Source: Rubrivivax sp. (GTDB lineage: Bacteria; Pseudomonadota; Gammaproteobacteria; Burkholderiales; Burkholderiaceae_C). Taken from it: DNA of 46,400 nt. This document shows, one piece after another, positions 2,069 through 35,344 of this stretch. A program made the position numbers and the translations under genes. The notes below the pieces were generated by a model that made no database searches, was not told where the DNA came from, and saw only the letters and a program-made list of their open reading frames with translations. The stretch is taken from the NCBI GenBank assembly GCA_019635285.1, contig JAHBZS010000039.1, positions 1 through 46,400 on the forward strand. Reading direction: 5' to 3'. The stretch's first letter is position 1. Each line of letters starts with the position of its first letter.

Positions 2069-2102
2069 ATGTTCGAAGCGGCGCCGCCGCCATGACTGCC
2101 GA

Positions 2103-2121
2103 CCTGCCCTCGTTTTGCAGG
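2103..2121 (+). promoter_or_regulatory. Hairpin that can mask the cytX ribosome binding site
   Basis: CCTGC (2103-2107) can pair with GCAGG (2117-2121). The right half contains the first part of the AGGA ribosome binding site used by cytX. A small stem like this is a plausible expression platform for translational control by the upstream TPP aptamer. It is short, so this is inference. Confidence 0.35.
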
Positions 2122-2130
2122 AACGCCACC

Positions 2131-3411
2131 ATGGCCAGCCCGTCATCCGCTCCTTCCTCCCCGCGCCGCGACAGCGCGCATGCCTCGGCGTTGCCGGTGC
2201 CGCGGGCCGACCGCGTGTTCGGCTTCGGGCAACACGCTTCGCTGTGGTTCAGCCTGGGCGTGGGCCTGCTGGTGATGCAGGTCGGCAGCTTCCTGGTGCC
2301 GGCGCTGAGCCTGCGCGACGCGCTGCTGGCCATCGTCGCCGGCTCGGCGCTGGGCGCCGGGCTGCTGGCCTGGGTGGCGGCGATCGGTTGCCGCGAGGGG
2401 CTGTCCAGCTCAGCGCTGGTCGGGCACACGCTGGGCCGGCGGTTCGCCGTGCTGCCGGTGGCGCTGAACGTGCTGCAGCTGCTGGGCTGGACGGCCTTCG
2501 AGCTGGTGGTCATGCGCGACGGCACGGCGGCCATCGTGCGCCAGCTGACCGGGCTGGATGCCGCCTGGGTGCCGATCGTCGCCACCCTGGCCTGGGGCGG
2601 CCTGCTGGTGGCGCTGGCCGGCGGCACGATGACCGGCCTGGTGCGCCGCTTCGTCAGCCGCTTCGGGCTGCCGCTGGTGGTGGTGTCGCTGTGCTGGCTG
2701 AGCTGGCAGTTCTGGTCGCGGGCGCAGGCGCAGGGCTTCGACGCGCTGTGGAGCCGCCCCGGCGACGGCTCGATGAGCGCGCTGTCGGCGCTGGACCTGG
2801 TGATCGCGATGCCGGTGTCGTGGCTGCCGCTGGTGGCCGACTATGCGCGCTACGGGCGCGCGGCGTCATCGGCCTTGCGCGGCACCTGGCTGGGTTATGC
2901 GCTGGCCAACATCTGGTGCTACGCGCTGGGCGTGCTGGTGGTCAGCACCTCGGCGCCGGGCGCCGAACTGGTGGCCACCTTGCTGCTGGCCCAGGGCGGC
3001 CTGGTGGCGCTGGGCCTGATCCTCATCGACGAGGTCGACAACGCCTATGGCGACGTGCATTCCGGTGCGGTGTCGGTCAACTTCCTACGGCCACGCATGA
3101 CCATCCGCCGCGTCGGCATGGCGCTGGCCGCGTTGGGCACCGCCTGCGCGCTGGTGCTGCCGATGCACAGCCTGGAGCCGTTCATGCTGCTGCTCAGCTC
3201 GATCTTCGTGCCGCTGTTCGGCGTGGTCATCTCGCAGCTCGCACCCGGGCTGCCGCCGCAGCGCGGCTTGCGCTGGGCGCCGGCGGCGCTGTGGCTGGCG
3301 GGCATCGTCGTCTTCCATGCCGGCGCCCAGTGGTGGCCGGCCTGGGGCTCGGCGCTGCCCAGCCTGGCGCTGACGCTGGGCCTGGGCGCGCTGCTGAGGA
3401 GCCGCGGCTGA
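2131..3411 (+). CDS. cytX: CytX-type NCS1 transporter, probable hydroxymethylpyrimidine uptake
   Basis: A 426-residue inner-membrane permease of the nucleobase:cation symporter-1 family with about 12 hydrophobic segments. CytX-like features are the FGQHASLWFSLGVGLLVMQV start, the NVLQLLGWTAFELVVM segment and the DEVDNAYGDVHSGAVS loop near residue 300. Most NCS1 proteins carry cytosine, hydantoin or related bases. The TPP riboswitch directly upstream argues that this one imports the thiamin precursor 4-amino-5-hydroxymethyl-2-methylpyrimidine. The ATG at 2131 follows AGGAACGCCACC; an in-frame ATG at 2092 would place the start closer to the aptamer and has no good ribosome site. No thiamin biosynthesis gene is adjacent, so this looks like a single-gene transcription unit. 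Confidence 0.88.
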   Translation: MASPSSAPSSPRRDSAHASALPVPRADRVFGFGQHASLWFSLGVGLLVMQVGSFLVPALSLRDALLAIVAGSALGAGLLAWVAAIGCREGLSSSALVGHTLGRRFAVLPVALNVLQLLGWTAFELVVMRDGTAAIVRQLTGLDAAWVPIVATLAWGGLLVALAGGTMTGLVRRFVSRFGLPLVVVSLCWLSWQFWSRAQAQGFDALWSRPGDGSMSALSALDLVIAMPVSWLPLVADYARYGRAASSALRGTWLGYALANIWCYALGVLVVSTSAPGAELVATLLLAQGGLVALGLILIDEVDNAYGDVHSGAVSVNFLRPRMTIRRVGMALAALGTACALVLPMHSLEPFMLLLSSIFVPLFGVVISQLAPGLPPQRGLRWAPAALWLAGIVVFHAGAQWWPAWGSALPSLALTLGLGALLRSRG

Positions 3412-3476
3412 CGTCAAGGTCTGCATGGCCGTGCTCGTCGCTCATCGGCACGGCGCATCCCTGCCCTGCGCACGAC

Positions 3477-3750
3477 CTAGGAGCCTGGGCGGCAGAGATC
3501 GGCACCCGCGCCGAGGTGGCCAAGGCCGCTGGCGTAGGCGCGTCGCGCAGCGCGGGCTCGCCGCCCGCGCAAGCGACGCAACACCCGCCAGCGGCCTTGG
3601 GTACCTCGGCCCTTCGGGTTGGGGCTGATTCGGGCGCATGCAGCGTTGCAGCGCTTGCCCGGGCGGACCGCCCGGGCTGCGCACTGCGCCTTGCCTGCAT
3701 TCCGAATCAGCCCCAACGCGGGTGCCGATCTCTGCCGCCCAGGCTCCTAG
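3477..3750. repeat. 274-bp palindromic element able to form a three-way junction
   Basis: The ends (3477-3510 and 3717-3750) are a perfect 34-bp inverted repeat starting CTAGGAGCCTGGGCGGCAGA. Inside lie two further long palindromes. Arm 1 is 3511-3609, where 24 terminal bases pair with two mismatches and inner blocks GCGTCGC/GCGACGC and CGCGGGC/GCCCGCG also pair. Arm 2 is 3618-3717, with a perfect 16-bp end (GTTGGGGCTGATTCGG) and an inner GCCCGGGCG/CGCCCGGGC. Only eight bases separate the arms. All three stems can form at once in single-stranded DNA or RNA, giving a Y shape. There is no long protein frame typical of a transposase and no obvious target duplication. I read it as a non-coding, possibly mobile, structured element of unknown function. 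Confidence 0.85.
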
Positions 3751-3805
3751 CCCGCACCCAATGTCAGCGAGGCGCCGCCGCCGAGCATCGCGCTGCACGC
3801 GACGA

Positions 3806-3952
3806 TCAGGGCAGGCCAGGGGGGGCGGCCTGCATCAACTCCGTCTGCCGGCGCGCCGCCGCGCGCTCCTCGGGCCTCGGCGGCAGACCGGTTTCCTTGC
3901 GCACGACGAGCGTGCCGATGCGCGGCTCGCCTGCGGCGCAGCCTGCGCCGCC
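3806..3952 (-). pseudogene. Coding-like remnant in frame after the lipoprotein stop
   Basis: Directly after the TGA of the small lipoprotein gene the same frame stays open for 48 codons. It reads like protein, for instance EPRIGTLVVRKETGLPPRPE, with G/C third positions, and ends in TGA at 3806. There is no start codon or ribosome site of its own. It may be a leftover C-terminal tail of a lost neighbour, or a readthrough extension. I do not recognise the family. Confidence 0.3.
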
Positions 3953-4273
3953 TCAGCGCAGCAGCGGATTGCGCGCCACCTCGCCCTTCTTCGTGCAGAT
4001 GGCCTCCGAGACGCTGCGGCCGGTCACGCTGATCGAGCCGCCGACGAAGCAGTTGAAGTCCTGCCCTGTCTTGGTTCGCACGCTGTAGCGCGTGGTCGTG
4101 CCGTCATCGACGCGGTTGCTGACGGTGAAGTCGCGCTTGTCCAGGCCGAGGGCGAACGCGGTGCGATCGACGATGGCTTCGTCGGTGACGGCCATCGAAG
4201 CGCAGCCGGCGGCCAGGGCGGAGCCGAGCGCCACGATGGCGGTCAGCGCAAGGGTGGTGATGTGGGTGTTCAT
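3953..4273 (-). CDS. Small outer-membrane-type lipoprotein, hypothetical
   Basis: A 106-residue protein with a clear lipoprotein signal: a short polar N terminus, a hydrophobic run from about residue 6 to 22 and the lipobox LAAGC with Cys24 as the lipidation site. The mature part contains DEAIVDRTAFALGLDKRDFTV, a YSVRTKTGQDFNCFV strand and a C-terminal SEAIC, with two cysteines that could form a disulfide. The start at 4273 is supported by AAGGA a few bases upstream. It lies 59 bp downstream of the large repeat lipoprotein on the same strand, so the two are probably co-transcribed. No function is assigned. A role in the periplasm or at the inner face of the outer membrane is inferred from the lipobox. 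Confidence 0.75.
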   Translation of the reverse strand: MNTHITTLALTAIVALGSALAAGCASMAVTDEAIVDRTAFALGLDKRDFTVSNRVDDGTTTRYSVRTKTGQDFNCFVGGSISVTGRSVSEAICTKKGEVARNPLLR

Positions 4274-4332
4274 CTTGGTTTCCTTCGGGTCTCTCTTGGG
4301 GGGAAGGCGGGGCCGATCGCACCCGCCCGGGC

Positions 4333-6435
4333 TTAGCGCAGCAGGTTCACCCACAGGCTCTTGCGGACGGCTCCGGCCACGTCGCTGTGCACCCAGGCGG
4401 CCACGCCCTGGCCCGCGGCGTTGAAGGCGCCGTAGACGTAGGGGTCGAAGCCGTGCGGAGCCTCCAGCGGCACCGCGTTGCTCCAGGCGCCGCCCCAGGC
4501 GAGGCGGCGCGAGTACACGTCGCCGAAGGTGGTCGGGTTGGGCCAGCGGTCGGGGGACACGTAGACGATCACGGCATTGCCTTCGGCGTCCAGGCCGAGC
4601 TGTGTGTCGATGCCGTAGCTGCTCGCCACCACGGGAGCCGAGAAGCCCGCGCCGGGCGTGTACTGCATCGACTTGAGCGTGGTCATGCCGCTGTTCCAGA
4701 CCAGCACGGCGCGGCCGGCGGCCGTCATCACGAGGCGGACGCGCGCGCTGAAGAGCGAGTCGACGGCGTTCGCGTCGACCTGCACCGCGCTGCCCCAGCC
4801 GCTGCTGGCGCTGAACACGTTGTAGTAGAGCGAGCTGCCCTGGTGCCAGGCGGCGATCGCATTGCCTGCGGCATCCATCGCCACCTTCGGCAAGGTTGCG
4901 GAGCTGACGTTGTCGAAGCTGTCGTCGATGCTCTGCGGCGCCTGCCAGCCGCCTTGCGGCAGGTAGCGGGCGGCCTTGACGCTGTAGTTGGCGTCGCCCG
5001 GATTGCGCTCGCGCCAGATCGCCATGGCCGTGCCGTTGGCGCTGATCGCCACGTCGGCATCCTTGGCGTCGAGGTTGCCGCTCGCATCGACGCGGGTCCA
5101 GGCGAGCCAGTTCGTGGCGCCGGCCGGCAGGGCGATGTTGTAGACATCGGCGCCGGCGGTCACCACGCCGATCGCGCCGCCCGCATCCGCCACCGCGGCG
5201 CTGAGCAGGCCGGCGGCGAGGGCCGGTGGCACGAACGGGCTGCCCCAGCCGGAGCCGACCGTGAAGCGGCGCGTTTCCAGGTTGGGGCGCAGCCAAGTGG
5301 CCGTGCCATTGGCGTCCATCAGCAGGCGACCGGCGAGCGGCGTGGCGTTGGCCGTCACGCCGGGCACCACCACCGCCGCGTCCCAGCCCTGGCCGGCGGC
5401 ATAGCGGCGCGAGTAGATCTTGCGCGTGTTGCCGTCGGGCGTGCCGTCCGACTGCTCCCACATCACCATCGCGTCGCCCTTGGGCGAGATGGCGGTGAGC
5501 ACCGCGCTGCCGACGTTGAAGTCGTTGTTCGACTCGAGCAGTTGCGCCGTCTGCCATGCGGGTGCGGCCGGTGCCGCGCTGAAGGTGGCGACCACGCTAC
5601 GGTCGGCGCTCATCGCCAGCGTGCAGGTGGCGGTGCTGCCGCTACAGGCGCCCGACCAGCTCGCGAACTGCTGCCCGGCCGATGCCGTGGCGGTGAGTAT
5701 CACGCTCGTGCCGTCGCCGAAGGGCGCGCTGCAGGTGCTGCCGCAGTCGATGCCCACCGGCTGTGAGCGCACTGCGCCACCCCCCGCGAGCGTGACGCTC
5801 AGCGTGCGCTGCACCGCGGGCGCCGGAGCGAACACGACGTTCACGCTGCGCGCCTGGCTCATCGTCACCGTGCAGCTCGTGCCGGCGCCGGTGCAGGCGC
5901 CACCCCAGCCGCTGAGCACCTGGCCCGCGGCGGGCGTCGCGCTGAGCACCACGCTGGTGTTGGCGGCGAAGGGCGCGTTGCAGGTGCTGCCGCAGTCGAT
6001 GCCGGCCGGCTGCGAACGCAGCGTGCCGTTGCCGCTGACATTGACGCCGAGCGTGAAGCTCGACGGCGGCGGTGCGTTGAAGCTCGCCGTCACCGTGCGT
6101 GCCGCCTCCATCGTGAGCGTGCAGCTCGCGGCCGTGCCGGCGCAGTCGCCGCCCCAGCCGCCGAACACCTGACCGGTGGCCGGCGTGGCGCTGAGCGTGA
6201 CCGAAGTGGCCGGATCGAAATGGGTGCTGCAAGTGGCCCCGCAGTCGATGCCGGCAGGGGCCGAGACCACGCGGCCGTTGCCGCTGACGGAGACCGAGAG
6301 CGCATTGCCGTTCGGTAAGGGGTTGGCGCTGCCGCCCCCATCACCGCCACAGGCTGCGAGGCCGGCGGCGGTCAGCAGAGGCAACAACCAGGACGAACAA
6401 CTGAACAGACGAGTGCGAAGCAGCGGCATGGGCAT
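4333..6435 (-). CDS. Large surface lipoprotein with three divergent InlB-type B repeats
   Basis: A 700-residue exported lipoprotein. The signal sequence ends in LAAC (Cys29) followed by a glycine-rich linker. Three repeats of about 76 residues follow (near 45-120, 127-203 and 211-286). Each has GIDCG..C near the start, then TSV.L.A, a GW or SW strand and C..(T/S)M..(A/D)R(S/T)V near the end. This matches the divergent InlB B-repeat pattern seen in surface proteins. The paired cysteines suggest disulfide-stapled beta domains. From about 290 to 700 there are repeated beta strands such as DANGTATWLR, SANGTAMAIWRE, DAAGNAIAAWHQ and DAEGNAVIVYVS, which suggest a beta-propeller-like domain. It probably sits on the cell surface, binding a ligand or supporting adhesion (inference). 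It diverges from the DUF6502-type gene across the 6436-6585 regulatory region. Confidence 0.8.
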   Translation of the reverse strand: MPMPLLRTRLFSCSSWLLPLLTAAGLAACGGDGGGSANPLPNGNALSVSVSGNGRVVSAPAGIDCGATCSTHFDPATSVTLSATPATGQVFGGWGGDCAGTAASCTLTMEAARTVTASFNAPPPSSFTLGVNVSGNGTLRSQPAGIDCGSTCNAPFAANTSVVLSATPAAGQVLSGWGGACTGAGTSCTVTMSQARSVNVVFAPAPAVQRTLSVTLAGGGAVRSQPVGIDCGSTCSAPFGDGTSVILTATASAGQQFASWSGACSGSTATCTLAMSADRSVVATFSAAPAAPAWQTAQLLESNNDFNVGSAVLTAISPKGDAMVMWEQSDGTPDGNTRKIYSRRYAAGQGWDAAVVVPGVTANATPLAGRLLMDANGTATWLRPNLETRRFTVGSGWGSPFVPPALAAGLLSAAVADAGGAIGVVTAGADVYNIALPAGATNWLAWTRVDASGNLDAKDADVAISANGTAMAIWRERNPGDANYSVKAARYLPQGGWQAPQSIDDSFDNVSSATLPKVAMDAAGNAIAAWHQGSSLYYNVFSASSGWGSAVQVDANAVDSLFSARVRLVMTAAGRAVLVWNSGMTTLKSMQYTPGAGFSAPVVASSYGIDTQLGLDAEGNAVIVYVSPDRWPNPTTFGDVYSRRLAWGGAWSNAVPLEAPHGFDPYVYGAFNAAGQGVAAWVHSDVAGAVRKSLWVNLLR

Positions 6436-34198: not shown

Positions 34199-35344
<1,146 letters not shown>

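Follow-up and report, generated by a model that had tools for sequence, protein, structure and literature searches.

What lies inside a MITE is commonly regarded as filler, with the ends alone seen as important. Bacterial MITEs are described as 70-300 bp long, with inverted-repeat ends, no genes, a position adjoining coding sequence and strong folding (PMC10969869, PMC3733652), and the Beta-proteobacterial repeat element (BRE) as GC-rich, 75-91 bp long, tandem and mostly intergenic, in Bordetella, Polaromonas, Delftia, Acidovorax and others (PMC3110155). Here, it is the interior that looks old and conserved and the ends that look changeable. The element in question occupies 274 nt (3477-3750) of the window, by which we mean the whole 46,400-nt stretch of Rubrivivax sp. 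DNA that was analysed. We think it very probable that this element is a MITE moved in trans by an IS1182-family DDE transposase, with an old conserved two-hairpin module inside its ends. The mobile-element part of this reading is ordinary in kind and well supported; what is out of the ordinary is a conserved interior found with ends that differ. A search of open PMC full text returned no paper that we recognised as describing this element.

The original prediction of a perfect 34-bp inverted repeat around two long hairpins agrees with what we find. The repeat (3477-3510 and 3717-3750, 34 nt including CTAG) is 100% complementary. The outermost CTAG on each side (3477-3480 and 3747-3750) is the two copies of a 4-bp target-site duplication and lies outside the element proper; copies elsewhere in the genome end in CTAG or decayed CTAG, and one empty site has a single CTAG. 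The terminal inverted repeats, which form the outer stem, thus run from 3481 to 3510 and from 3717 to 3746, and the first ~16 bases of the left one are common to IS1182-family ISs of the genus. Arm 1 (3510-3610, +) is a bulged hairpin with a foot of 25 nt at 92% complementarity (3510-3534 with 3586-3610) and matches our arm model at 3524-3596 (+) with 67.8 bits. Arm 2 (3618-3717, -), a bulged hairpin in the opposite orientation, has a foot of 19 nt at 95% (3615-3633 with 3702-3720) and matches at 3631-3703 (-) with 72.2 bits. Eight unpaired bases had been counted between the arms; a short linker does exist, but it holds seven bases in the window's RNA fold (3611-3617), four of which pair as a mini-hairpin, CC-TTC-GG, with both pairs C-G in all 18 aligned elements. 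The structure is strong far beyond chance: the DNA fold of 3460-3770 reaches -152.8 kcal/mol, whereas 100 dinucleotide shuffles average -86.3 (sd 4.4; z -15.1) and not one of them does as well. Elsewhere in the window, a TPP riboswitch (RF00059; 1978-2082, +; 54.4 bits against a gathering score of 54.3) sits just upstream of a cytX-like gene (2092-3411; TIGR02358 at 232 bits, below the cut-off of 309.85). Weak arm-model matches at 34231-34306 and 34981-35058 (+; 18.1 and 19.1 bits, E 0.036 and 0.021) are either decayed arms or chance.

The element is far from being a lone copy without homologues or covariation: copies, relatives and two-sided changes were all found. A DNA search of its own draft genome (G000, 89 contigs) yields 11 near-full-length copies (identity 96-100% for ten and 90% for one) as well as fragments, three of which sit at contig ends. 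Matches, many of them weak, short or partial, occur in 28 of 61 related genomes including its own (26 of the 37 from the genus and 2 of the 24 from the order), and the genus has full-length relatives of ~69-86% identity in seven further genomes (G036, G015, G031, G016, G009, G012 and G029). A second element type, ~266-269 nt long, has the interior in common and a different outer stem, and its ends are mostly TCA or TGA repeats. Searches of plasmids with the window element, of viral contigs with the arm pattern and of phages with one relative gave no match. Another search with one relative gave 57 matching bases on an Azotobacter plasmid, which turned out to belong to a 271-nt three-armed copy with CTAG ends. 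This plasmid, pAcX50f of Azotobacter chroococcum (L354), was typed as mobilizable, and its copy marks a possible route of spread. Polaromonas naphthalenivorans plasmid pPNAP02 (L254) carries at 2501-2655 a 155-bp element with window-type ends and a very different interior. In isolate SSC6 (CP059256.1, L094, ~5748-6070), two one-arm elements stand in tandem with one TGA common to both, an arrangement that looks as if one element had landed in the other's target duplication.

The earlier suggestion of a non-autonomous mobile element receives good support from the dispersal of the copies, from one empty site at which CTAG stands once, and from ends in common with IS1182-family ISs. The empty site came from joining the flanks of the G000:C37 copy over one CTAG and searching 81 genomes of the genus. 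Among seven sister sites inspected, one, in G016 (G016:C225), is clean, its flanks aligning through a single CTAG where the occupied site reads CTAG-element-CTAG; at the other six the junction has diverged too far. That single CTAG is the overlap of the stop codons of two convergent genes. Window-type ends occur in 34 of the 81 genomes, its own included, and in G005 two of them bracket a 1558-bp IS whose protein belongs to NCBIfam IS1182 (386.8 bits against a cut-off of 270). Homologues of this protein are found in 9 of the 81 genomes (E <= 1e-60), with window-type ends on both sides at five of the nine loci, on one side at three and on neither at one. The element is short beside related IS1182 elements (274 nt against 1558 and 1645 bp) and has no transposase gene. 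We infer that an IS1182-family DDE transposase recognises the CTAG-flanked ends and moves the gene-less element in trans, and that insertion duplicates CTAG. At E <= 1e-60 the IS subgroup was not found in the element-rich assemblies G000 and G084, and the other IS1182-family genes of G000 are without these ends, so present movement remains putative.

Several further transposases were considered in this connection. Four PF01609 transposase genes of the window's own genome (two IS1182-, one IS1380- and one IS5-family) were tried as partners and rejected, matching ends not being found. An IS1380-family transposase gene (G000:C4:17678-18364) lies ~530 bp from the most diverged element copy. PF13340 is present in three of 41 genomes of the genus, none of them G000; one, G023, has CTAGGGCGTGTTAACACTAA ends, and no such ends were seen at the other two. 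The arm model has no match at the IS loci L261 and L262.

Many landing sites are stop codons. Read by eye, 42 of 61 elements, several of them per genome, have a flanking coding frame whose in-frame stop falls on the terminal CTAG or TNA. A stop codon stands at the edge of seven of the 11 copies in G000; the window copy does not touch one. By script, the left gene's stop lies at the edge in 28 of 36 one-arm elements of other genera (in one of these, L111, ~6 nt outside it) and at the right edge in none, and sites away from stop codons are few. This set derives from 45 short elements, eight of which were dropped for other ends or doubtful borders (L090, L109, L116, L125, L170, L172, L174 and L204); the remaining 37 become 36 for the stop and gene-order counts by removal of an identical copy, L207. 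As a yardstick from 400 kb of one genome (G084), stops make up 12 of 60 noncoding CTAG sites, a count that takes in element ends, 138 of 702 noncoding TGA sites and 68 of 205 CTNAG sites. CTAG is scarce in that stretch (G084:C1:1-400000), with just 71 sites, 11 of them at element ends. Because duplication of the target would restore the gene's stop, insertion probably does little harm.

What travels inside these ends would be an old module of two bulged hairpins, set in opposite orientation around the mini-hairpin. Covariation among copies, which had been proposed as a check, is present: with the window's own structure applied to 18 elements, two-sided changes are seen at 65 of 115 pairs, against a reference figure of 46.3, and these 65 take in 20 of the 33 pairs of the outer stem. 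Paired cells reach 89.0%, against 72.5% after shuffling and 34-45% with partners slid, though any structure derived from a single row is apt to do better than its slid versions. The measure of further pair types is weak (128 against 118.6; 11 of 500 shuffles gave 128 or more), and at the tip of arm 2 just 58.1% of cells are paired. When the 88 pairs that both strands predict are followed through 20 diverse elements, 1671 of 1753 cells are Watson-Crick, and at least two Watson-Crick types occur at 63 of the 88 pairs. Variation is absent or almost absent from the bulged, unpaired boxes AGGCGC and GCAAC across 47 aligned arms, 25 of which were chosen by the box pattern itself and 22 by their place in the element.

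Sequence comparison also indicates that the arms behave as modules, which are exchanged, lost or turned round as units. Between two elements of one genome (L052 and L067), arm 1 is 91% identical, the outer stem 46% and arm 2 39%, the last value being lowered because arm 2 of L052 is turned round. One-arm forms of 175 nt occur in G084 and arm-less forms of 56-60 nt in three genomes inspected, so the arms are unnecessary for an element to be present.

The arm reaches well beyond the genus. Our arm model (R2), which is built on a hand-written structure and replaced a version (R1) in which most pairs were missing, finds it at E <= 1e-5 in 55 of 274 genomes of the class, the window's own included, and in 47 of 222 genera; the class surveyed is, judging from the named matches, presumably Gammaproteobacteria in the GTDB sense. 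An exact one-arm pattern occurs in at least 120 stretches of named genomes, and among the matches listed most are from Burkholderiales, with Rhodocyclales, Methylobacillus, several Thioalkalivibrio and one Luteimonas besides. In a set of 16 genomes chosen largely as arm carriers, 15 are positive, and the number of units runs from 0 (G019) to at least 150. The latter figure comes from a small genome of 2.5 Mb, MAG Xx448_bin5 (G113, the genome of L139). Twenty survey loci were fetched and 19 of them, all save L339, were searched for a second unit, which lies 105-126 nt away in the opposite orientation in 13. Ten genomes supplied these 13, among them G337, whose loci are similar to Thioalkalivibrio arms used in the model. 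Judged by eye, the ends of the fetched copies are unlike the window's and mostly unlike one another. Since the module is common to elements with unlike ends, it would seem to be kept for itself and not for one transposase. We put at about even the chance that the arms are selected as a folded single strand, whether RNA or single-stranded or extruded DNA, that is recognised by a widespread host factor.

If the folded strand were RNA, the arms might act as a folded mRNA 3' end or as an antisense RNA at gene ends, with selection on transcription filtering their orientation. Gene order at the 36 one-arm elements (23 >E>, 8 >E<, 3 >E?, 2 <E> and 0 <E<) is consistent with such filtering, and bottom-strand pairs in the 37 elements point the same way, with 145 G.U against 31 A.C and with one G.U, next to a pair that covaries, retained in 34 of 37. 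But the 145:31 count uses pairs predicted on the same strand and falls to 63:30 on pairs common to the folds of both strands, and the 37 elements are related (two are identical) and are therefore not independent events. L052 was left out of the 63:30 count and of the per-arm strand counts below because its arm 2 is turned round. The choice of strand is awkward for an RNA. In all 37 one-arm elements it is the strand antisense to the upstream (left) gene that folds better, by a mean of 22 kcal/mol with RNA energies, and no transcript from either neighbour would include it in the 23 tandem cases. Nor is the preference clear in three-armed elements of the window's genus, where the plus strand is better in 29 of 45 (by arm, in 17 of 23 for arm 1 and 11 of 23 for arm 2); arm 2 of longer elements in other genera tends towards what the one-arm elements show (32 of 43). 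On balance we regard an RNA role as doubtful. The narrower idea of a retron- or group-II-like RNA relic finds no support in Rfam: at gathering score, Rfam 15 recognises no family in window positions 3000-4500 or in 10 loci of relatives, a permissive search of eight loci returned just nine miRNA models far below their gathering scores, and over the whole window the sole match is the TPP riboswitch outside the element.

It is also possible, if unlikely in our estimation, that the arms act as DNA, as single-stranded hairpins or a cruciform bound by a putative protein that aids movement or tolerance. The same bulged box stands in both arms in opposite orientation, so that either strand shows one unit of each, and the swapping, loss and turning round of arms as units would suit a DNA-level part. 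The bottom-strand preference, too, holds with DNA energies (mean 13.7 kcal/mol, 37 of 37). Against this, the existence of arm-less forms sits poorly with an aid to movement; the arm box is in none of 13 fetched loci of Y1 (REP-associated) transposases from other genomes, and a search of G000 found no Y1 gene. Retention of G.U next to covarying pairs is commoner in RNA.

Template switching between arms can keep long palindromes perfect. That this accounts for the arms, with no selected function and an interior that is travelling filler, we consider improbable, for although the high Watson-Crick share and rare wobble of three-armed elements are what DNA-level correction would give, correction should erase the asymmetry of the near-invariant bulged box, and the one kept G.U and the recurrence of the same arms in many families with unlike ends speak against it as well.

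Beyond a MITE moved in trans, we would tentatively suggest, as something short of an even chance, that a folded module has been carried through the whole class by successive unrelated transposase ends, is kept via a conserved host factor and occupies stop codons with little or no burden on the host. If confirmed, selection throughout a class would be acting on a nucleic-acid fold that moves, a case open to testing, and a reservoir of gene-end repeats that now lack annotation could be given a name. An element that lands on stop codons would also show how a compact genome can be filled while its genes stay intact.

How does the element compare with known systems? REPs and REPINs with their RAYT, as described in PMC3733652, resemble it as dispersed intergenic hairpins with inverted pairs; the window element is far longer, has inverted-repeat ends and a target duplication, and stands in a genome where the Y1 search came back empty. 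BREs are likewise GC-rich, mostly intergenic repeats, yet they are 75-91 bp long and tandem, and the available part of their description gives no inverted-repeat ends (PMC3110155); it is this description, not sequence, that sets the window element apart from them. The ends of sister elements look like those of IS5-family ISs, which carry TTA repeats on a Xanthomonas plasmid and CTAG on Cupriavidus plasmids; the window element's own ends do not. IS1182-family ISs of the same genus have the terminal ~16-17 bases and the CTAG flanks in common with it, whereas the window element has no transposase gene and an unrelated interior. It is closest to the MITEs as they are described in the sources cited at the outset, with the same size range, inverted-repeat ends, absence of genes, gene-side location and strong fold. 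It differs from them in that two-sided changes preserve the interior fold of its kind in many families, in elements whose ends are unlike, and in that the edges of such elements often fall on stop codons.
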